Virus record (IMG/VR): IMGVR_UViG_3300025137_000066
Span: 1 to 46,197 of that record
Strand: one strand, 5' to 3'
Source: a virus
Length of the DNA stretch: 46,197 nt
Positions 1,966 to 46,197 of this stretch are shown here, piece by piece. Numbering within the stretch: position 1 is the first letter of the stretch; each line of letters begins with the position of its first letter. Below the pieces are notes generated by a model that made no database searches, was not told the DNA's origin, and saw only the letters and a program-made list of their open reading frames with translations. The translations under genes were made by a program, and so were the position numbers.

Positions 1966-4472
1966 TGGCTATTGAAAAAAGCGGTTTAGGTACAGAAGAC
2001 AATCCTGACGTTATGCCGATGGGCAGCGCCATCGAGGTCGAGCCTGAGATGACTCTGAACGACGAGATCCGCAACGCCGCTGAAATACTGGTTACCGAAG
2101 AAGCCATCCTGATTGACGATGAAATCGATGCGCCAGAAGAAATGCCCATTGAAGCTGGCTTCAACGAAAACCTTGTAAACCTAGTATCAGATAGCGACCT
2201 TTCAAAGCTTGCCAGCGAAATTATTGACTCAGTCAAGTCTGACAAAGAAAGCCGCTCAGAGTGGGAGAAGACTTACAAAGACGGGCTAAAGTATCTGGGC
2301 ATGAAGTTCGATGACTCCAGAAGCCAGCCCTTTGAAGGCTCTTCTGGCGTGATACACCCGATACTGGCTGAGTCTGTCACTCAGTTTCAGGCGCAGGCGT
2401 ACAAAGAATTATTGCCAGCCAAAGGCCCAGTAAAGACTGAGGTGATTGGAAACCGCAACGCCGAGTCTGAGATGCAGGCTGAGCGTGTTCAAGACTTCAT
2501 GAATTACTACATCATGAACATCATGCAAGAGTACGATCCTGAGCTGGATATGCTGTTGTTCTATTTGCCGTTGGCAGGCTCTGCATTTAAGAAGGTCTAC
2601 TTTGACACTGGCGCAAGTCGCGCTATGAGCAAGTTCATTGCGCCAGAAGACTTGGTTGTGCCTTACGAGGCTACCGATTTATTTACGGCTGAGCGCGTTA
2701 CTCACGTTATCAGCATGAGCAGAAACGAGATTAAGAAGCAGCAGCTCAACGGTTTTTATGCAGATATTGAGCTAAAAGGCGGCAGCGTTGCTGTTAGCCG
2801 TAGCGAGATCGAAGAAGAGATTGATGAGATTGAGGGCATGGAGCCTTCTTATCAAGAAGACCGTGATCGCTCTGTCTTTGAAACCCACACGATACTAGAC
2901 CTACCCGGCTTTGAAGACGTAGGCGAAGATGGTGAGCCTACAGGACTAAAGCTGCCTTACATTGTGACTGTCGATGAAAGCAGCCGCAAAGTTTTGCGTA
3001 TTTCGCGCAACTATGCGGAGGGTGATCCGCTCAAGAATAAGATTAACTTCTTCGTTCAGTACAAATTTTTGCCCGGCTTAGGATTTTATGGTTTGGGCCT
3101 AAGCCACATGATTGGCGGCATCTCGAAATCAGTAACGTCCATCCTGCGCCAGCTCATCGATGCGGGTACGCTGGCTAACTTACCAGCAGGCTTCAAGGCT
3201 CGCGGTATGCGTATTCGTGACGAAGACAGCCCACTACAGCCGGGCGAGTTCCGAGACATCGATACGACTGGCGCGTCATTGCGCGAGAACCTGATCCCGC
3301 TGCCGATCAAAGAGCCTTCTAACGTGCTCATGCAGCTACTAGGACTGCTTGTGGAGTCTGGCAAGCGGTTTGCCTCTATCGCTGACACAAACATCGGTGA
3401 TGTAAACCAAGCCATGCCTGTAGGCACTACGGTGGCTTTATTGGAGCGTGGCACCAAGGTCATGAGCGCAATCCACAAGCGATTGCACTACAGCCAAAGG
3501 CTAGAGTTTCAGCTTCTGGCAAAGGTCTTTTCTGAGTACCTGCCCCAAAGCTACCCGTATATGTCAAAGAACGGCCCACAAGAGATTATGGGTCAGGACT
3601 TTGATGGTCGAGTGGACGTGATACCTGTATCTGACCCCAACATATTCAGCCAAAGCCAACGCATTACTATGGCTCAAGAGCTGTTGCAGATGGTGCAGTC
3701 TAACCCTCAGATACACGGGCCAAACGGCATCTACGAGGCTTACAGGCGCATGTACGCCGCACTTGGCATAAACGACATTGACAGCTTATTGACGCCTCCA
3801 CCGCCTCCACAGCCACCTATGCCGATTGATGCTGGCATCGAGAACTCAGGATTCTTGATGGGTCAGCCTGCTCAGGCGTTTGAGCAGCAAAACCATCAGG
3901 CGCACATTGACGCTCACAGGTCGTTGTTCCTGACCGATGTGGTAAAGCAGAACCCTCAGCTACAGGGCATGATTATTGGGCATATGATGCAGCACCTACA
4001 GTTCATGGCTGGGCAGATGGTTCAAAACCAGCTACCGCCAGAGGTGCAGCAGCAGATGCAGGAGGTTCAACAGGCTCAGCAATCGGGTCAGGTTCCGCCA
4101 GATCAACTGCAACAGATGAGCAGCCAAGTGCAAATGGCTATCGAAAAGTTTTCTTCTCCAGTCTTGGCTCAGCTTACCCAAGAGCTGCTTGAGTCAATTG
4201 GTCAGGGTGATGAGACTGATCCGCTCGTTCAGATTCGTGAGCAAGAGTTGTCCCTGAGAGAGAAAGAAATTGATTCTGATAACCAGCAGTTTGAGTCCAA
4301 ACAACAACAACGGCTTCAAGAGAAGCTATTAGAAAACGAAATTGCAAAACAACGGCTTGGCGTCCAAAAAGACGTAGCCGACGATAAGCTCGATGTGGCT
4401 ATCCGCCGTCTTGATCAACAGGCTGAGCTAAAGCTGCTCGACATGCAAAACAAAAATATGGGAGGCCGATAA
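1965..4472 (+). CDS. Portal protein
   Basis: At 835 aa this is the second gene of the packaging module. It follows the terminase with a 1 bp overlap. The size and layout fit P22-like or podoviral portals that form the dodecameric DNA gate: an acidic N-terminus (residues 1-80), a mixed alpha/beta core (about 80-600), then a glutamine- and methionine-rich helical C-terminus (about 620-835) that resembles a barrel or crown extension. The core includes a long stretch typical of portal wing and stem domains, around GGISKSVTSILRQLIDAGTL (residues 382-401). No catalytic motif is expected. The call rests on position, length and general resemblance, not on a catalytic signature. Confidence 0.88.
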   Translation: MAIEKSGLGTEDNPDVMPMGSAIEVEPEMTLNDEIRNAAEILVTEEAILIDDEIDAPEEMPIEAGFNENLVNLVSDSDLSKLASEIIDSVKSDKESRSEWEKTYKDGLKYLGMKFDDSRSQPFEGSSGVIHPILAESVTQFQAQAYKELLPAKGPVKTEVIGNRNAESEMQAERVQDFMNYYIMNIMQEYDPELDMLLFYLPLAGSAFKKVYFDTGASRAMSKFIAPEDLVVPYEATDLFTAERVTHVISMSRNEIKKQQLNGFYADIELKGGSVAVSRSEIEEEIDEIEGMEPSYQEDRDRSVFETHTILDLPGFEDVGEDGEPTGLKLPYIVTVDESSRKVLRISRNYAEGDPLKNKINFFVQYKFLPGLGFYGLGLSHMIGGISKSVTSILRQLIDAGTLANLPAGFKARGMRIRDEDSPLQPGEFRDIDTTGASLRENLIPLPIKEPSNVLMQLLGLLVESGKRFASIADTNIGDVNQAMPVGTTVALLERGTKVMSAIHKRLHYSQRLEFQLLAKVFSEYLPQSYPYMSKNGPQEIMGQDFDGRVDVIPVSDPNIFSQSQRITMAQELLQMVQSNPQIHGPNGIYEAYRRMYAALGINDIDSLLTPPPPPQPPMPIDAGIENSGFLMGQPAQAFEQQNHQAHIDAHRSLFLTDVVKQNPQLQGMIIGHMMQHLQFMAGQMVQNQLPPEVQQQMQEVQQAQQSGQVPPDQLQQMSSQVQMAIEKFSSPVLAQLTQELLESIGQGDETDPLVQIREQELSLREKEIDSDNQQFESKQQQRLQEKLLENEIAKQRLGVQKDVADDKLDVAIRRLDQQAELKLLDMQNKNMGGR

Positions 4473-9577: not shown

Positions 9578-9636
9578 AGGTAAGATCCTGACAGCCGCAA
9601 TCCCGCGTCTGACATTTGCCACGACAGGAGATCAAC

Positions 9637-10254
9637 ATGGCTACAACAACTTTCAACGGCCCAGTCCGCTCAGAGAACGGGTTTCAACAAATTTCAAAAG
9701 CAGCTAACGGCACAATCACCGTTAATAGCGGCATCAAAATGGCAACTGAAGCTACTGGCGGAGCTGGTATCGAGGGAACCGCTGCCGTTTACGTTACTCA
9801 GGTTAACCGCCTTAAAAGCGATGTGGCGACTAACGTCAACATCGTGAAAACCACGATCATGATTGACCTTACTGGCTTGAAAGACGGCGGCACCGCTGGC
9901 GACATCATTGGTAAGGATGGCTCTGGCGTTGCATTTATAGGCAAGGTGACCGCAGCTAACCAAGGCAGCGTGTTTGGCGTGACCATGACTTGCGTGGAAA
10001 CACCCGCAGGCGGCAGCACAGACATCGATCTGTTCTCAGCAACCGAAGGCACTGGTGTCAACGACACTGCAATTGGTGACCTGACCGAAACGCAAATCAT
10101 CAACGCTGGCGCTGCTTCTGCTGGAACAATGGTTGCTGGTGGCGACATAGCTGCTGACCAATTCTTGTATCTCGTGAGCCAAGGCACGGGTGACGCGACT
10201 TATACTGCTGGACGTTTCCTCATCGAAATCACTGGCTTCGACGTAGCTTCCTAG
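9637..10254 (+). CDS. Beta-rich virion protein, 205 aa
   Basis: Starts at ATG 9637 behind ACAGGAGATCAAC; an upstream in-frame start at 9616 lacks a ribosome-binding site. The protein is Gly/Thr/Ala-rich with few aromatics and opens with FNGPVRSENGFQQISKAANG, a pattern seen in head fibre or decoration-like proteins of aquatic phages. Likely secreted into the virion as a surface or decoration protein. No catalytic motif. First gene of an operon that runs to 27262. Confidence 0.65.
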   Translation: MATTTFNGPVRSENGFQQISKAANGTITVNSGIKMATEATGGAGIEGTAAVYVTQVNRLKSDVATNVNIVKTTIMIDLTGLKDGGTAGDIIGKDGSGVAFIGKVTAANQGSVFGVTMTCVETPAGGSTDIDLFSATEGTGVNDTAIGDLTETQIINAGAASAGTMVAGGDIAADQFLYLVSQGTGDATYTAGRFLIEITGFDVAS

Positions 10255-35709: not shown

Positions 35710-35909
35710 GGGTAGGTAAAATGCTACCCTATGAGCAGTTGGTGTAAGTTATTGATTTATAGTCTTTTATTAACAGGGTAGGGTAGGGTACTACTAATTA
35801 ATAATAATAATAATATATAGATATAGGTATACAGCACACCGTGAGTGTCTGGAGTCTCTAGGGTGTTACGAAAGTTTTGAGACACTGTACCCTCCCTGCC
35901 CCAGTACCC
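35710..35909 (+). other. Candidate replication origin: GGGTA repeats and AT-rich tract
   Basis: A 215 bp gene-free gap. It holds a hairpin GGGTAG/CTACCC (35710-35715 and 35724-35729), three perfect tandem GGGTA units (35776-35790), an AT-rich tract of AAT repeats (35795-35819), and two inverted TACCC units (35888-35892, 35905-35909). The combination of short iterons next to an AT-rich unwinding tract, immediately after the primase-helicase gene, suits an origin. Confidence 0.5.
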
Positions 35910-35924
35910 TGAGTGGAGAATTGC

Positions 35925-36101
35925 GTGGAAAATTTTGTGTATGATCACGAGCAAAATCGAGAGGCGAATTACAGGCGCTGGCGAATCATGAATACGGATG
36001 AGCGTGAGGAAGCAGGGCAAGCGCCACATCTAGAGGATGTGGCGCGGAGGTTGTTTAACGAACTGGCGGACAGTGGATGGCTGAAGAAAAAAAGCGGGTA
36101 G
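35925..36101 (+). CDS. Small protein before the small terminase, 58 aa
   Basis: I choose GTG 35925 because GGAG stands 6 bases before it; an upstream in-frame GTG at 35913 has no such site. The protein is charged (EANYRRWRIMNTDEREEAG) with an amphipathic C-terminal helix (LEDVARRLFNELADSGWLKKK). It overlaps the small terminase gene by 25 bp. No family recognised. Confidence 0.65.
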   Translation: MENFVYDHEQNREANYRRWRIMNTDEREEAGQAPHLEDVARRLFNELADSGWLKKKSG

Positions 36102-36604
36102 GCAGGCCGAAGAAAGAGCGCAAGCAGTTGGTGGAAACGCCGAGTGCTTTCGTTCCTGATGAAGAGGCTGGCATAACTGAAATGCAGGCGAGCTTTGTTT
36201 GGCACTACACCGAGGGAGCGAGTGGGCAGACAGAGGCGGCTCGGAGAGCTGGGTTCAGCTTCCCCGCTGCTGCTGCGACAAAGATGCTCAACGGCAAAGA
36301 CTTCCCGAAGGTTACGCGAGCTGTGCGGGTTAAGCAGGACGAGCTGCGTGAGAAGTACGCGGTTACGCCGCAGAAGACGGGGGCGATGCTGTGGAATATT
36401 GCCGAGACTGCATTCGAGAGCGGCGCATACAATGCTGCCGTGAGTGCTGTGAAAGAGTTGAACCAGCTCGCTGGCCTCACGATCCACCGCAGCCAGAACC
36501 TCAACATCAACGCTGACCTACAGAAGATGACAAAGGATGACATCAAACATCGGCTCAACGAATTGCTCGGCGTGGACACCGAGATGAGCGACAAAGACCA
36601 CTAA
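36077..36604 (+). CDS. terS: Probable terminase small subunit
   Basis: A 175 aa protein with an AT-hook-like N-terminus (VGRPKK, 8-13), then a helix-turn-helix-type domain (FVWHYTEGASGQTEAARRAGFS, split FVWHYTEGASG and QTEAARRAGFS, about 40-61), and a helical C-terminus (TPQKTGAMLWNIAETAFESG and AVKELNQLAG). This pattern is typical of phage small terminases that bind the packaging site. Position next to a dyad-rich non-coding block supports that. It lies about 10 kb from the large subunit gene counted across the open ends, a split that is unusual. Confidence 0.8.
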   Translation: MAEEKKRVGRPKKERKQLVETPSAFVPDEEAGITEMQASFVWHYTEGASGQTEAARRAGFSFPAAAATKMLNGKDFPKVTRAVRVKQDELREKYAVTPQKTGAMLWNIAETAFESGAYNAAVSAVKELNQLAGLTIHRSQNLNINADLQKMTKDDIKHRLNELLGVDTEMSDKDH

Positions 36605-37161
36605 CCTCGTCGGTTTCGCGTATCCCAGAAAGCAACTACGTTCTGGCCCCGCCTCCCGCCCAGCCCCTCAAAATCTGGGGAAATTCCCGATATTATGTTA
36701 AATAGGATTAAAAACGAATAAAAACAACGACTTACGCGCTTAGGTTAGTAAGCACTAACTAACTAGCGTTGATCGGCCCTGCTCAGAGGCGAGACACGTC
36801 TCGGCCAGAAGGCCGTGCGTCCTTGGTTTTCTTCTCTCTGAGCGCCTGTACGCGCCTCTCACGGTCTGGCGTCACGCGGAGTAGGAACCCTATAGGGTCG
36901 GAAAAAGCCTGTCAGATCGCGTTAGATTGCGACCCCCGCACCCCCCTGTTTGGCGACCTCGGCAGGCGCGATAGCTATAGCAAGGTTTTGCTCACAGAAT
37001 CCCCAAAAATCTACAACCGAAAGGATAGGTACTCTGAGCGACCACTTTTTCCAGTCGGGGTTGGAGTTTGCAAAGTGACCGCCCAGAGTGATCCAGAATT
37101 TAACCGAAAAAGTTTTGCCCCAAAAATTTTATTTCAATTTTTTTTCAATTAAACTCCAGCG
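36605..37161. other. Dyad-rich non-coding block (packaging, origin or att candidate)
   Basis: No convincing gene. Structures include GTTAGT/ACTAAC (36743-36758 region), a stem GCTCAGAG (36781-36788) with CTCTGAGC (36836-36843) enclosing CGAGAC/GTCTCG and CGGCC-AGAA-GGCCG (36802-36815), a 12 bp perfect palindrome ACCCTATAGGGT (36887-36898), and an AT-rich end (37108-37150) with TTTCAATT repeats. It follows the small terminase gene, so a pac/cos site is the favoured idea. Confidence 0.5.
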
Positions 37162-37572
37162 ATGGCAGATTCCAGAAACAAAGGCGCGTCTTTCGAGCGC
37201 GACATAGTAAAGCGCATCAATGCGTTCGCCGACCAACACGCCCTTGGTTTCACCTGCAAGCGTAACCTCGACCAATATCAAACCGCTGACCTGTGTGACA
37301 TCCAAATCCCCAATCACGCCATCGAGTGCAAGGCGTACAAATCAGGCTGGTGGTTTGCACCCGCTTGGTGGGAGCAGGTTTGTGCCGCTTGCGGTGACGA
37401 TACGCCCGTTCTAATCTACAAGTTCAACAACAAAGCGATCAGGGTATGCCTGCCGCTGTACGCGATTAACGAAAATATGGCGCGAGACAACTCTCGGACA
37501 GCGGTGGTTACTCTTGATGAGTGGCTGGAGCTGTTGAAGGTTAGCTTTGAGCAACAGCGAGAGGCTGCGTAA
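37162..37572 (+). CDS. Holliday-junction-resolvase-like PD-(D/E)XK nuclease
   Basis: A 136 aa protein. The nuclease core E12 (ASFERD), D46 (LCDIQI) and E55-x-K57 (IECKAY) fits the resolvase/Hjc-type branch of the PD-(D/E)XK fold. It likely cuts branched DNA during late replication so that the packaging motor meets a linear template. Start is ATG 37162 without a clear Shine-Dalgarno site. The gene overlaps the next by one base (TAATG). Confidence 0.82.
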   Translation: MADSRNKGASFERDIVKRINAFADQHALGFTCKRNLDQYQTADLCDIQIPNHAIECKAYKSGWWFAPAWWEQVCAACGDDTPVLIYKFNNKAIRVCLPLYAINENMARDNSRTAVVTLDEWLELLKVSFEQQREAA

Positions 37573-38534
37573 TGGCTGATATCGACATCTTTGACGATCC
37601 AAACCGCGACCCCGTGTACGAAGACATGGGTTTTAGCTTCGACAACGAGCGCGGCCAGTATTTTGAGGTGGTTTCTCACCCTGAGCATGGCGTTATGCGC
37701 CAGTACATCTCACCCCGCGACCAATCCCCCGTTCCTGCGTTGAGTGATGCTCGCAACGACGCTGACATGCTTAGACGTGTAATAGCCTCGGTTTCTGGTC
37801 GCGTGTCAGACAAAGAGTTTGCAAAGATAAATGTTGGGTCTAAAAAATATGGCAGCAAGGGCTTAACTAAGGGCCGTGGCTACAAAGAAGGCGGTGGCGT
37901 GGGTGATATCGACATCTTTGAACCCTCGAACCCAGCGCCACCCGCGAGGGCTGAGTACATACCGCCGCAGCGGTTTGATCAGTTGCAGCAGTTTGCAGAA
38001 GACCCGCAGGGTTTTAGCAGCAATGAGGCCGTTGTTACTCGGTACGAACAAGGCCGTCAGGACATTTTGAACAAGCGAGAGCAGGGTGGCTACGGCGTTG
38101 GCGACAATTTTGACCTCGAAGCTTTCCGACAAGACTATCAAAGCCTGAATAAAGCCCTAGACATGGGTATGCCAGCCCGAATTTTCCCTGCTTTTACCCC
38201 GTATACCGCGAAAGAAGCGGATATGGCGGCTGAGATCACGCAGTATGAGGGTGTACCCGCTCCAGAGCAGCAGGCTGCTGAGCAGATTTTGGCAAGAACC
38301 TCTGCTGACCGTGCTTTAGAGAGAAAAATAACCGATTTAGACCCTTTTGGCAGGCGTGTTCAGGAAATTGCTGGCGGAGTTGGCTCGTTATTGGGTCGAT
38401 TTGGCGGAACGGGCGATGAAAAGCAGCTTATTTTGCGCGAAGAGGCCAGAGGGCCAGAGATAAAGCTGTTTAGGCAAGAAGCGCGTAGAGGTATGCCGTC
38501 TCAAACGGGCGTGACGTTCACGCGGCGGTTTTAA
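37572..38534 (+). CDS. Virion-associated protein with DIDIF motifs
   Basis: A 320 aa protein opening MADIDIFDDP and repeating GDIDIFEPSNPAPP at 111-124, preceded by YKEGGGV (104-110). The motif DxDIFEP also occurs in the tail of the 899 aa internal protein (848-854). The rest is helical with an acidic-basic mix and a C-terminal basic segment (RRGMPSQTGVTFTRRF). Motif sharing suggests it is a virion component, possibly sorted together with the ejection proteins (inference). Confidence 0.62.
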   Translation: MADIDIFDDPNRDPVYEDMGFSFDNERGQYFEVVSHPEHGVMRQYISPRDQSPVPALSDARNDADMLRRVIASVSGRVSDKEFAKINVGSKKYGSKGLTKGRGYKEGGGVGDIDIFEPSNPAPPARAEYIPPQRFDQLQQFAEDPQGFSSNEAVVTRYEQGRQDILNKREQGGYGVGDNFDLEAFRQDYQSLNKALDMGMPARIFPAFTPYTAKEADMAAEITQYEGVPAPEQQAAEQILARTSADRALERKITDLDPFGRRVQEIAGGVGSLLGRFGGTGDEKQLILREEARGPEIKLFRQEARRGMPSQTGVTFTRRF

Positions 38535-41534: not shown

Positions 41535-41697
41535 CCCCCCGCTCCTTCTTCCACGTCCTGATAATGTAATCCGCCTCTGGCCCAGCCTCGTGCTCTACGT
41601 CAAGCACATGCCTGAACAGGCGCATAGCCTTGGGCGAATCCATTTGGTGCATCATCCTGAACGCAGCCATGTCGAGCGTCTCGAAGTATTTATCCAT
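41509..41697 (-). CDS. Small helical protein, 62 aa
   Basis: Start ATG 41697 overlaps the preceding stop by 8 bp (ATGGATAA); two upstream in-frame ATGs (41721, 41712) would run further into the upstream gene. The product is helical and His/Met-rich (MDKYFETLDMAAFRMMHQMD) with a basic end. No family recognised. Last gene of the minus-strand run; its 3' end overlaps the 999 aa gene. Confidence 0.6.
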   Translation of the reverse strand: MDKYFETLDMAAFRMMHQMDSPKAMRLFRHVLDVEHEAGPEADYIIRTWKKERGVKLAESPQ

Positions 41698-41860
41698 CAG
41701 ACTTTGTTCCATGTGAAACATTCGACTTGCGCCTCGGCGCTGGCTTTTTCACCGCCAAGGCGTCTCGGATCTCAGTGAGCAGCCGCTCGATGTTGGATAG
41801 GTAGTCGATCAGAACCTCGGCGTCATCGCCCTCAACCTCGACGGTTATCTTCTTACTCAT
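41690..41860 (-). CDS. Small coiled-coil protein, 56 aa
   Basis: ATG 41860 lies in an ATGA overlap with the upstream stop; a longer frame starts inside that gene and lacks a ribosome-binding site. The product has a beta-like start (SKKITVEVEGDDAEV), a helix (LIDYLSNIERLLTEIRDAL) and a basic end. Role unknown; probably an oligomerising accessory protein. Confidence 0.62.
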   Translation of the reverse strand: MSKKITVEVEGDDAEVLIDYLSNIERLLTEIRDALAVKKPAPRRKSNVSHGTKSDG

Positions 41861-42108
41861 AGCGTTTCCACCACTTGGCTTAGATTGCCCTCGATGAAGG
41901 CGTTGAAGCAATCGACTACCTTGGACTCAAGGCCCAACTCTTTCGACAGCTTGATGATGGCGTCCCGCTCTTCCTGACCCTTTGTCCAAGCGCGGTGATC
42001 GTCGGAGTAGTTGTACGTCCAGTCGTGGCTTAGTAGCATCTGCCTGAGTTTTTCAATCGGGTTTGCTGTCATCGCTGCGCCCTCCGCGTTTGTTTGGTTT
42101 GTCATCAT
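41857..42108 (-). CDS. Small accessory protein, 83 aa
   Basis: ATGATG start behind AGGAG. After a flexible start, PIEKLRQMLLSHDWTYNYSDDHRAWTKGQEERDAII (quoted as PIEKLRQMLL and SHDWTYNYSDDHRAWTKGQ) is a recognisable small domain found in accessory regions of many genomes; the rest is helical. It follows a terminator on this strand, so it may depend on read-through or a promoter I cannot place. Role unknown. Confidence 0.65.
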   Translation of the reverse strand: MMTNQTNAEGAAMTANPIEKLRQMLLSHDWTYNYSDDHRAWTKGQEERDAIIKLSKELGLESKVVDCFNAFIEGNLSQVVETL

Positions 42109-42121
42109 GCCATGTATCTCC

Positions 42122-42150
42122 TAAAAAAAATAAAGGCCGCTTACGCGGCC
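42122..42150 (-). terminator. Intrinsic terminator of the metalloprotease operon
   Basis: On the minus strand: GGCCGC-GTAA-GCGGCC (42135-42150) followed by TTTATTTTTTTTA (42122-42134). The stem includes the last codons and the TAA of the gene at 42141, so termination and translation end overlap. Confidence 0.85.
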
Positions 42151-43490: not shown

Positions 43491-43744
43491 TGTTGAAAGT
43501 TGATAAAGGTGTGCCGATTCCGAAAAAAGCAACCGCCAGACCAAAAAACCAAGATCTTCACGACGCCTTGAGCCATATGGAGATTGGAGATAGCGTTGAG
43601 TTTCCTAAGGACGGAATATCGAACGGGATACGATACTCCAAAGATGGCAATACCCTTAGGCAACTGGCTCGTTTGCGCGGGATGCAGATGACTCAAAGAG
43701 AAAACGAGGACGGAAGCGCCATTCGTTTCTGGAGGGTCAAGTAA
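43490..43744 (+). CDS. Small protein, 84 aa (DUF7303-like pattern)
   Basis: ATG 43490 in a TGATG overlap. A Lys/Pro-rich start (LKVDKGVPIPKKATARPK), then IGDSVEFPK..GIRYSKDGNTLRQLAR (quoted in parts) and FWRVK at the end. The pattern resembles small phage/plasmid proteins near DNA-processing genes; the family name is a guess. One base overlap with the recombinase start (TAATG). Confidence 0.65.
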   Translation: MLKVDKGVPIPKKATARPKNQDLHDALSHMEIGDSVEFPKDGISNGIRYSKDGNTLRQLARLRGMQMTQRENEDGSAIRFWRVK

Positions 43745-44535
43745 TGAGCGGCAACCCATTACGGCAGATCAACAACATCTACGGCTACGTCCGCGTATCC
43801 ACCGACGAGCAGGTCAAGTCTGGCATCTCGCTGGAGACTCAGATGCAGCAGATCCGCGAGTTTGTGAAGGAGAAGTACAACCGTGAGGTTGATCAGTTCT
43901 TCGCAGACGAGGGTGTCTCTGGCACTCACGCGGTGTTGGAGCGACCTGCAAGCCGCGATTTGACGGACGTAATTGACCGCCACGACGTAGTGATCTGCAC
44001 TCGGCTTGATCGACTGAGCCGCTCAAGCTCTGACCTTCTTGGCCTGATTCCAGTGCTCCAAGACATCGGCATAACGCTGTACTTCTGCGAGCAGTTTGGT
44101 GAGATGCCGATTGTCTACCCTGACGCCGCTAAGTCTAAGGGCTTGGACTCGAAGTTTGATATGAACTCGATGGCGAATCAGATCATGCTGATGGTTTTAT
44201 CGGCGGTTGCCGAGATTGAACACGCGACCATCAAGGATCGCTTTGCAGCAGGAAAGATCGACTGGGCCTCACGCGGGTACGCCATCGGCGGCTCTGCGCC
44301 CTATGGCTACCGCCATGTTGAGGAAAAGACTGGCAGCAAGACCCGAAAGTTTCTTGAAGAGGTGCCTGAAGAGCAAGACGTTCTCAAGACAATCTACAAG
44401 CTCAAGAAGCGCGGCTTGGGTGCTCGCAAGATTGCCAAGCAGGTCAATAGCCTGCACGATATACCGCCTATGACGCACAGCAAGGTTGATCGTATCTTGA
44501 AGCGCAAGTTTCAGGGTATCCCTAACGCTGCATAG
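43744..44535 (+). CDS. Serine recombinase (short large-type)
   Basis: A 263 aa recombinase. The catalytic domain has YVRVSTDEQ with nucleophile S19 and R17, and TRLDRLSRS (86-94). GGSAPYGYR (182-190) starts the recombinase domain found in large serine integrases, followed by EEQDVLKTIYKLKKRGLG, but the zinc-ribbon and coiled-coil end normal for those (about 450-550 aa) is missing. So it is shorter than typical integrases and longer than classic invertases. Could mediate integration, plasmid-like resolution, or inversion near the tail-fibre genes that follow; no att site was found. Confidence 0.85.
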   Translation: MSGNPLRQINNIYGYVRVSTDEQVKSGISLETQMQQIREFVKEKYNREVDQFFADEGVSGTHAVLERPASRDLTDVIDRHDVVICTRLDRLSRSSSDLLGLIPVLQDIGITLYFCEQFGEMPIVYPDAAKSKGLDSKFDMNSMANQIMLMVLSAVAEIEHATIKDRFAAGKIDWASRGYAIGGSAPYGYRHVEEKTGSKTRKFLEEVPEEQDVLKTIYKLKKRGLGARKIAKQVNSLHDIPPMTHSKVDRILKRKFQGIPNAA

Positions 44536-44567: not shown

Positions 44568-44714
44568 ATGACAGCAATTGAAGACATTCAAGAAGCAATC
44601 AGCACAATGGAGGCGTCGCTGGCGACCGACTTCATGACGGATGCTGTTCGAGACATTATGAGCACAGCGGTCAAGCTTCTCAAAGACGCCGAGTCTCAGC
44701 TAGAAAATGGCTAA
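44568..44714 (+). CDS. Small helical protein, 48 aa
   Basis: ATG 44568 with a weak GGAGCC site, overlapping the next gene by 8 bp (ATGGCTAA). Helical, acidic (AIEDIQEAISTMEASLATDF). No family recognised. Translation is supported by the overlap and its regular composition. Confidence 0.6.
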   Translation: MTAIEDIQEAISTMEASLATDFMTDAVRDIMSTAVKLLKDAESQLENG

Positions 44715-45606
44715 CATAAACGGCTGGGGCCGTGGCGGTTGGGGTGAAGGTGCGTGGAGCACTCCCCTGCCCGTCGAACCCACAGGTCAGGCGATCACGT
44801 CTGGCATCGGCTCGCTGTCGGTTAGCGGTGTAGCCAACCTCACGCTTACAGGTCAGGCGGTAACCTCCGCCCTCGGCACACCAGTCGTTGCAGCGGCTGC
44901 GACGGTTAGCGTTACTGGCCTTGCAATCACCTCGGCGCTCAGCACGGCCCTCACGGTAACGGGTCAGGCGAATATCACGCCAGCAACTCAGGTGATCACG
45001 TCTGGACTTGGCGCTCCTGTAATTGATGCTGAAGCCAATGTTTCGGTCACAGGTCAAGGCGTCACTAGCGCATTAGGCTCGGTTACTACTGATGCGGAGG
45101 CTAATGTCACGCCTACGGGTCAGGCGATTACTTCTGGCCTTGGCGCTCCAAGCATTGACGCCAAAGCCAACGTCACAGTTTCTGGTCAGGCGATAACCTC
45201 TGGTGTCGGCGCGATGACCACTGTTGCGGCGGCGTTCGTTCAGCTTACGGGTCAGGCAATCACGTCTGGTCTTGGAGCTGTCACATTCGATGCTGAGGCC
45301 AATGTCACGCTCACTGGCCGCTCAATTACGTCTGGCTTAGGTCAGCCCAACATCATAACCGTGAATAATGTTTTTATTACGGGGCAGCAGATGACATCAT
45401 CTGTGGGCGCAATGACCACGGTTGCAGCTTCGATTGTTCAGCCAGCAGGCGTCTCTATGACCGCTGGCCTTGGAAACATTTTGATTTGGGGTGAGATCGA
45501 CACAGATCAAACGCCGAGTTACGGTCAGATAGACACAAGTCAAACCCCAACCTACAATGACATCAGCACAACACAGACGCCTAGTTACGCAAATGTCAAG
45601 ATCTAG
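44707..45606 (+). CDS. Repeat-rich tail protein
   Basis: A 299 aa protein. The N-terminus (NGWGRGGWGEGAWST) is Gly/Trp-rich. From residue 25 about 11 imperfect repeats of roughly 24 aa follow, each with TGQAITSGLG or a close variant and often IDAEANV. The last 35 residues hold three 12-residue units (for example DTDQTPSYGQI). Such repeats are common in tail-spike or fibre proteins of aquatic phages. DNA repeats are also close, so copy number may vary. Starts inside the small gene before it. Confidence 0.8.
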   Translation: MANINGWGRGGWGEGAWSTPLPVEPTGQAITSGIGSLSVSGVANLTLTGQAVTSALGTPVVAAAATVSVTGLAITSALSTALTVTGQANITPATQVITSGLGAPVIDAEANVSVTGQGVTSALGSVTTDAEANVTPTGQAITSGLGAPSIDAKANVTVSGQAITSGVGAMTTVAAAFVQLTGQAITSGLGAVTFDAEANVTLTGRSITSGLGQPNIITVNNVFITGQQMTSSVGAMTTVAASIVQPAGVSMTAGLGNILIWGEIDTDQTPSYGQIDTSQTPTYNDISTTQTPSYANVKI

Positions 45607-45626
45607 GTTTTTTTAGAGGATAGAAC

Positions 45627-46197
45627 ATGGCAACTTTCGTCAATGATTTACGGCTCACAGAACTCGCCACCGGGGAAGGCTCAGGAACTTGGGGCACGAC
45701 CACAAATGCCTCGTTAGGGCTTATAGGCGAGGCGATGGGCGCTGGCGCAGAGGCTATCGCTAACGCTTCGACCCACACAATCACGATGGCAGACGGAGCC
45801 ACAGACGGCTTCAGGTCTTTGTTCCTACGGCTTACTGGCGGTGGTCAGGCATGTACGGTAACGCTTGCTCCTAACACGCTTTCTCACGTTTGGATCATGC
45901 GGAACGAAACCTCTGCAACCCTGACCTTAACCCAAGGCTCTGGGGCCAATGTCGCTATCGCGGCTGGTCAGACCAAGATTGTGGCAACGGATGGTGCTGG
46001 CTCTGGCGCGATTGTCTATGAAGTGGATGATCTTGAGCTTGCTGGCAATCTGCTTGTTGGCGGCACCTTGGGTGTCACTGGCGTTCTTACCGCTACATCT
46101 TTAGACATCTCAGGCGATATAGACGTTGATGGCACCACTAACTTAGATGTCGTGGACATTGATGGTGCTGTGGACATGGCTTCTACCTTAGCTGTAG
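45627..46197 (+). CDS. Tail fibre protein (partial, runs off the right end)
   Basis: ATG 45627 behind AGAGGA. The frame stays open for 190 codons to the edge. The N-terminal part (FVNDLRLTELATGEGSGTWG) is typical of phage fibre proteins that attach to the tail; the C-terminal visible part has repeated short units (GDIDVDGTTNLDVVDIDGAV, then MASTL) that form beta-structured fibre shafts. Likely receptor-binding, with the tip missing. Confidence 0.82.
   Translation, partial: MATFVNDLRLTELATGEGSGTWGTTTNASLGLIGEAMGAGAEAIANASTHTITMADGATDGFRSLFLRLTGGGQACTVTLAPNTLSHVWIMRNETSATLTLTQGSGANVAIAAGQTKIVATDGAGSGAIVYEVDDLELAGNLLVGGTLGVTGVLTATSLDISGDIDVDGTTNLDVVDIDGAVDMASTLAV

Follow-up and report, generated by a model that had tools for sequence, protein, structure and literature searches.

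A conserved array of spaced DNA sites behind the small terminase gene of an uncultured tailed phage as a candidate pac-like packaging-initiation site

The block between terS and the nuclease gene

The window (the whole stretch of DNA analysed here) is a linear virus record of 46,197 bp from a tailed phage, the TerL of which is 57–62% identical in protein matches to those of HTVC023P-type pelagiphages and an uncultured relative. Between its terS-like open reading frame (36077–36604) and a nuclease open reading frame (37162–37572) lies a gap of 557 bp (36605–37161), as the earlier note on this DNA had described (all features are collected in Table 1). The gap is real and the block is non-coding; the sole ORF longer than 60 aa that lies wholly inside it (36769–37152; 127 aa from a TTG start) is not open in any of 25 close relatives and lacks an excess of third-position substitutions among them. 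The A+T-rich end of the block was likewise confirmed and carries a repeat at 37125–37150. That the block is the longest gene-free stretch is a claim that depends on gene calls, as 41535–42140 and 45607–46197, which hold only weakly conserved ORFs, could match its length.

The small terminase (TerS) is assigned through its PHROG family, while the matches to PF03592 are weak (in 11 of 27 relatives, with E values of 0.1 or below). The predicted TerS structure is poor (pLDDT 64) and gave no clear fold match, with the SF6 small terminase (3zqq; Z 3.7, rmsd 7.1, 90 aligned) ranking no better than unrelated rows, and a search of the TerS sequence against solved structures returned nothing relevant. 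In the window and its relatives terS is located approximately 10–19 kb from terL.

Relatives were gathered by scans with the nuclease protein, with the TerS protein and with patterns. A total of 286 loci carry both the terS and nuclease genes, several of them sharing one contig, and these give 116 distinct blocks; across the relatives compared, TerS is 65–90% and TerL 82–91% identical to the proteins of the window. The nearest annotated phages gave neither a DNA match to the region nor a TerS match, and no plasmid match was found. The gap measures 476–685 bp in the first set of relatives, and the longer cases of 1055–1683 bp contain inserted genes, namely a proline/glutamine/glycine-rich ORF behind the conserved core of the block or a methyltransferase-like ORF that follows terS and precedes the block. 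The former differ from one another at one and the same place (L016 4041–4862, L022 2695–3423, L032 3802–4863 and L057 4123–4866), and the latter is seen in L012 at 3942–4442, where it was recognised by eye from a DPPH motif. The core is unbroken despite these insertions, which sets it apart from its neighbours.

Table 1. Features of the block and its surroundings (positions in the window)
Feature	Position	Strand	Observation
Origin-like element	35725–35915		AGGGT ×3.2 at 35775–35790; exact IHF consensus on the minus strand at 35745–35757; TAA ×5.7 at 35799–35815; then GTACCCT words
Small terminase (TerS)	36077–36604	+	phrog_51 in 27/27 relatives, best E 2.7e-12
IHF-like site AAACAACGACTTA	36722–36734	+	one mismatch to WATCAANNNNTTR
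Site B, dyad CTGCTCAG	36779–36786		in relatives GTG(AG/CT)CAC or CTG(AG/CT)CAG
Site D, GGAACCCTATAGGGTC	36884–36899	+	holds a perfect palindrome, 36887–36898
A/T tract after D	36902–36906		≥4 consecutive A/T bases within D+14 to +23 in 54/54
Element E, GCACCCCCC	36938–36946	+	C-run; CCCC nearly invariant, 1.6–2.0 bits per position
Element F, GATAGCTATAGCAAGGTTTT	36970–36989	+	dyad GCTATAGC at 36974–36981; GTT invariant in 54
Element G, GCTCACAGAATCCCCAAAAAT	36990–37010	+	CA 36993–36994 and A/T tract 37005–37010 near invariant
Variable 3' segment, hairpin arms 37031–37048 and 37072–37089	37031–37089	+	z = −3.02 in window
PDDEXK nuclease, RusA-like resolvase family in PHROGs	37162–37572	+	phrog_244 E 5e-16; PF24608 E 1.3e-9

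An ordered array with fixed and stepped spacings

The conserved part of the block is an ordered DNA array comprising an IHF-like site, B, D, an A/T tract, E, F and G (36722–37010), and numerous related phages of the ocean share it. The exact form of WATCAANNNNTTR, which we take to be the IHF consensus, is present in 26 of the 56 dissimilar blocks from relatives, compared to a mean of 0.75 (maximum 2) in 20 shuffles; permitting up to one mismatch raises this to 39 of 56 vs. 9.2 in shuffles, and the remaining 17 blocks have neither an exact nor a one-mismatch site. The orientation of the consensus is reversed in some clades. Of 115 blocks, 102 have site B upstream of D; it is missing in the other 13 and also in 7 of 12 held-out modules. 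A second palindrome, TTAGTGAGCACTAA, is found upstream of B in some relatives (L236, L239 and others) and is degenerate in the window (36744–36759).

The remaining elements were compared in a module alignment of 54 out of 107 sequences (one per 90% identity) drawn from the 116 distinct blocks, with 9 blocks left out since they fall outside its strict D pattern. The D core positions (GG, C, C, TA, G) and the CC of E are invariant in these 54 dissimilar sequences. D scores 19.8 in the window and the runners-up only 6.5 (the same site on the opposite strand) and 6.3, which makes D unique in the genome and rules it out as a genome-wide repeated word; in some relatives the block does contain a second D-like copy (27 vs. 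9 in shuffles). The perfect 12-bp palindrome ACCCTATAGGGT to which the earlier note pointed is present at 36887–36898, but by itself it means little because 46 kb should hold approximately 11 such palindromes by chance alone (at 4^-6 per position), and it is the surrounding core GGnnCnCTATnG that is conserved. In the two TerL-matched relatives that were checked, the D and F words were not found, apart from a single CTATAGG in L183. Behind D, the A/T tract reads AAAA in 30 of the aligned sequences, TTTT in 13 and mixed in 11, and the fact that it stays fixed in place while A-runs and T-runs are exchanged suggests that DNA shape matters here rather than sequence. For phased A/T runs the block ranks at the 99th percentile, with stronger ones elsewhere, in genes; across the window, AA/TT phasing at 10.5 bp is strongest at 38314, within a gene.

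The distances between these elements fall into two kinds. The spacing from D to F (measured to the GTT) is 99–102 bp in 115 of the 116 distinct blocks, and in a pattern scan permitting 78–92 bp the distance from D to the end of F was 85–87 bp in all 22 distinct real modules, a 23rd (L376) being a chance match. As the stretch between D and F can go from GC-rich to T-rich, its length is kept and its sequence is not. The distance from the IHF site to B is similarly narrow, at 56–58 bp in clades with B–D distances of 105, 104, 76, 65 or 42 bp (in the 76- and 65-bp clades the IHF sites are degenerate), and it is 68 bp, one turn longer, in two clades; other clades have no recognisable IHF site there. 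The length from B to D, on the other hand, varies in classes of 29.5, 42, 52, 63.7, 74.7, 84, 96.5 and 104.5 bp, corresponding to a step of approximately 10.7 bp.

A phase test of the B–D lengths at 10.5 bp gave R = 0.79 with a simulated p of 0.0005, in a simulation that ignores phylogeny and with two clusters (three blocks of 206/217 bp) removed for matching the TTAGTGAGCACTAA palindrome, in addition to the 13 of 115 blocks that have no B. The signal weakens when the three blocks are kept (R 0.52; Rayleigh 0.066; simulated p 0.036). The held-out modules have B–D lengths of 83, 105 and 213 bp. Helical stepping of this kind points to sites that need the same face of the helix, and thus to a DNA–protein complex instead of an RNA.

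The array is also tied to its gene neighbourhood. When it was located by pattern alone, 66 loci had 900 bp or more of upstream sequence and 65 of these had terS there, the exception being a chance match inside a gene; of the 54 loci with 1.8 kb or more of downstream sequence, 51 had the nuclease gene within 2.5 kb (two have it slightly farther away and the remaining one is the chance match). The two gene-free pattern scans behind these counts gave 80 loci, and most of their contigs are also in the gene-based sets, so the sample is not an independent one.

RNA, regulatory, recombination and replication readings

The earlier note drew attention to a stem enclosing two further hairpins and offered a late ncRNA as one possible function. 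The arms of this stem, GCTCAGAG (36781–36788) and CTCTGAGC (36836–36843), are present, but the fold is weak (z = −1.73) and only 12 of the 115 blocks from relatives have these arms. Single-strand folding of the core gives no RNA fold (z −0.45), and the ncRNA guess is unsupported there. A structured RNA, either a leader or an sRNA, could instead be made from the block's 3' part, where the window's hairpin at 37031–37089 folds well and several relatives form hairpins of different sequence at the same place. Among relatives, however, z ranges from +0.57 to −3.69, and the consensus fold over 16 of 19 segments (L062, L214 and L234 were left out for lacking the hairpin) is nearly empty, with 3 pairs and no compensatory change. 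Rfam gives nothing in the block at gathering score and one chance-level match (E 3.4), and the segment is replaceable, its position being occupied by cassette genes in some relatives. We consider a structured RNA at this place exceedingly improbable. Elsewhere in the window, at 9586–9639, there is a match to the Mu-gpT-DE RNA family with 63.7 bits.

The block could also be mainly a regulatory region of the downstream (late) genes, with D and B as operators, IHF bending the DNA, and F–G as a promoter for the nuclease and following genes or for the cassette genes behind G. This is the sole long non-coding region ahead of the nuclease gene, the inserted ORFs start soon after G, and F has a TATA-like core, all of which would fit such a role. 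Against it, no sigma-70-like promoter was found in the block vs. 1.3 in shuffles, and the array is linked to terS, which lies upstream. We know of no promoter layout with a fixed 100-bp D–F spacing and a C-run; a sigma-54 layout was looked at by eye and dropped. Regulation as the main function therefore appears rather unlikely to us, though it retains some weight. A promoter for the downstream genes may nonetheless lie in the same region as a packaging site, and SPP1 pac overlaps promoters according to the available part of its description (PMC6316719).

For site-specific recombination, the phage encodes a serine recombinase (43744–44535), unusual and 263 aa long, which is present in 16 of 19 records, and the block might serve it as a res or attP-like site. 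Dyads with a TA centre together with a DNA-bending protein fit some resolvase sites, and the TA-centred dyads of the block with a bending protein would do so as well. The recombinase gene is 6.6 kb away, however, and its product falls to 38–42% identity in two records whose D/F cores persist, so that it diverges far more than the site. A tyrosine integrase (PF00589) was found in 0 of 19 records, several of which are fragmentary, with 14 of 14 controls positive, and two genome scans found no relatives of TerS or the nuclease in host genomes. The attachment site proposed in the earlier note is thus disfavoured, and we regard a res or attP-like site for the serine recombinase as very unlikely. 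Two further observations concern this part of the window: approximately 250 bp at 43491–43742 are missing from relatives L341 and L343, and the coding region at 44707–45606 contains internal repeats, which show up as several overlapping hits in comparisons with relatives.

A replication origin or partition site would be in keeping with the IHF-like site and the A/T-rich end of the block, but no iterons were found in the block, and a separate element with iterons, an IHF site and AT-rich sequence, kept in relatives, lies upstream of terS at 35725–35915. Of 42 dissimilar relatives, 31 carry tandem repeats of this element, compared to 0.6 after shuffling. Its presence speaks against the origin that had also been suggested for the block, and we find this assignment highly improbable.

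A candidate packaging-initiation site

If the block serves packaging, contig ends and record starts bear on how the DNA would be cut there. An obligatory cos site, at which the terminase cuts every copy by staggered nicks to give cohesive ends, would be in keeping with the dyads, the C-run and the IHF-like site, which partly resemble lambda cos as far as the available text of PMC4856287 describes it. No hot spot of contig ends is seen at the block, however: contigs run through it in 86 of 99 cases and the right ends inside it (13 of 99) occur at a rate per kb like that of the flanks. The seven records of 43–55 kb (the window and six relatives) also begin at seven different distances from terL, and an obligatory cos cut seems unlikely to us. 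Since the contigs are unbroken at the block, a rarely cut, pac-type site is favoured; the background rates of contig ends are compatible with occasional cutting and equally with no cut, and the assembled contigs may include cellular DNA. Four contig ends near F (L298 = L073, L227 = L111, L231 = L097, and L099) were discarded as evidence of packaging ends as the rates are at background, and no terminal repeat was found in the window.

With these results in mind, the reading that we find probable, if with some reserve, is that the core of the block (36722–37010) is an IHF-bent, pac-like packaging-initiation site recognised by TerS, where binding of TerS and IHF, cutting by the terminase and the position of the cut are what we infer from sequence. 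The first guess of the earlier note, that the neighbouring small terminase starts packaging here, is the best-supported reading on account of the spaced conserved sites, the IHF-like site, the exclusive linkage to terS and the lack of a better origin, att or RNA assignment; the reason then given, the nested hairpins, is not conserved, and the contig ends show no cut. Under the proposed mechanism, TerS, encoded next door, would bind the dyad-containing sites B and D, while IHF or a similar host protein would bend the DNA at 36722–36734 and so bring B and D together. The bent complex would then position the large terminase, with a first cut expected near D to F, and cutting would probably be pac-like (headful), such that few copies of the site per concatemer are cut.

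The TerS of the headful phages SPP1 and SF6 is presumably of the PF03592 type, and the candidate site resembles their pac in being a DNA region at the terS gene with a TerS that matches PF03592 weakly. As in SPP1, where according to the accessible portions of two accounts most copies go uncut (PMC6316719; PMC4737164), DNA shape is likely to matter. SPP1 pac overlaps the start of terS, whereas the candidate site lies behind the gene; moreover, the available parts of the same accounts mention neither an IHF-like site nor helically stepped lengths such as those between B and D for SPP1 pac, in a comparison made by layout and not by sequence (PMC6316719; PMC4737164). The likeness to lambda cosB/cosN, in so far as the available text of PMC4856287 covers it, would consist of repeated recognition sites with an IHF site, critical spacing and dyad symmetry. 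Unlike lambda cos, there is no sign here of an obligatory cut, the site follows terS, which is itself distant from terL. HK97 cos has, in the available portion of PMC11331095, an A-tract near the cut and a 15-bp minimal TerS site that starts 15 bp from the cut. The A/T tract following D at the candidate site is reminiscent of this, but order and extent differ.

The two kinds of spacing may further reflect a ruler for a ring-shaped TerS, in which the IHF-bend/B unit and the D–E–F unit are each near rigid and the DNA between them changes by whole helical turns, such that both units could dock on one face of one TerS ring. We offer this only tentatively, as a possibility that is less probable than the packaging function itself. 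If true, it would represent a design for starting packaging that is between lambda cosB and SPP1 pac.

For this phage group, a literature search found no account of a site of this kind, with most subscription journals outside its coverage. Sites at which packaging starts are short and diverge fast, and they are normally mapped only in cultured phages. The uncultured relatives compared here vary enough for an architecture to be read from their sequences, that is, which parts are fixed, which parts slide, and by what step. If the packaging-initiation reading is right, IHF-like bending would be tied to a terminase family other than that of lambda, and the array would provide a clear target for work on TerS–DNA binding as well as a route to packaging sites in metagenomic phages.
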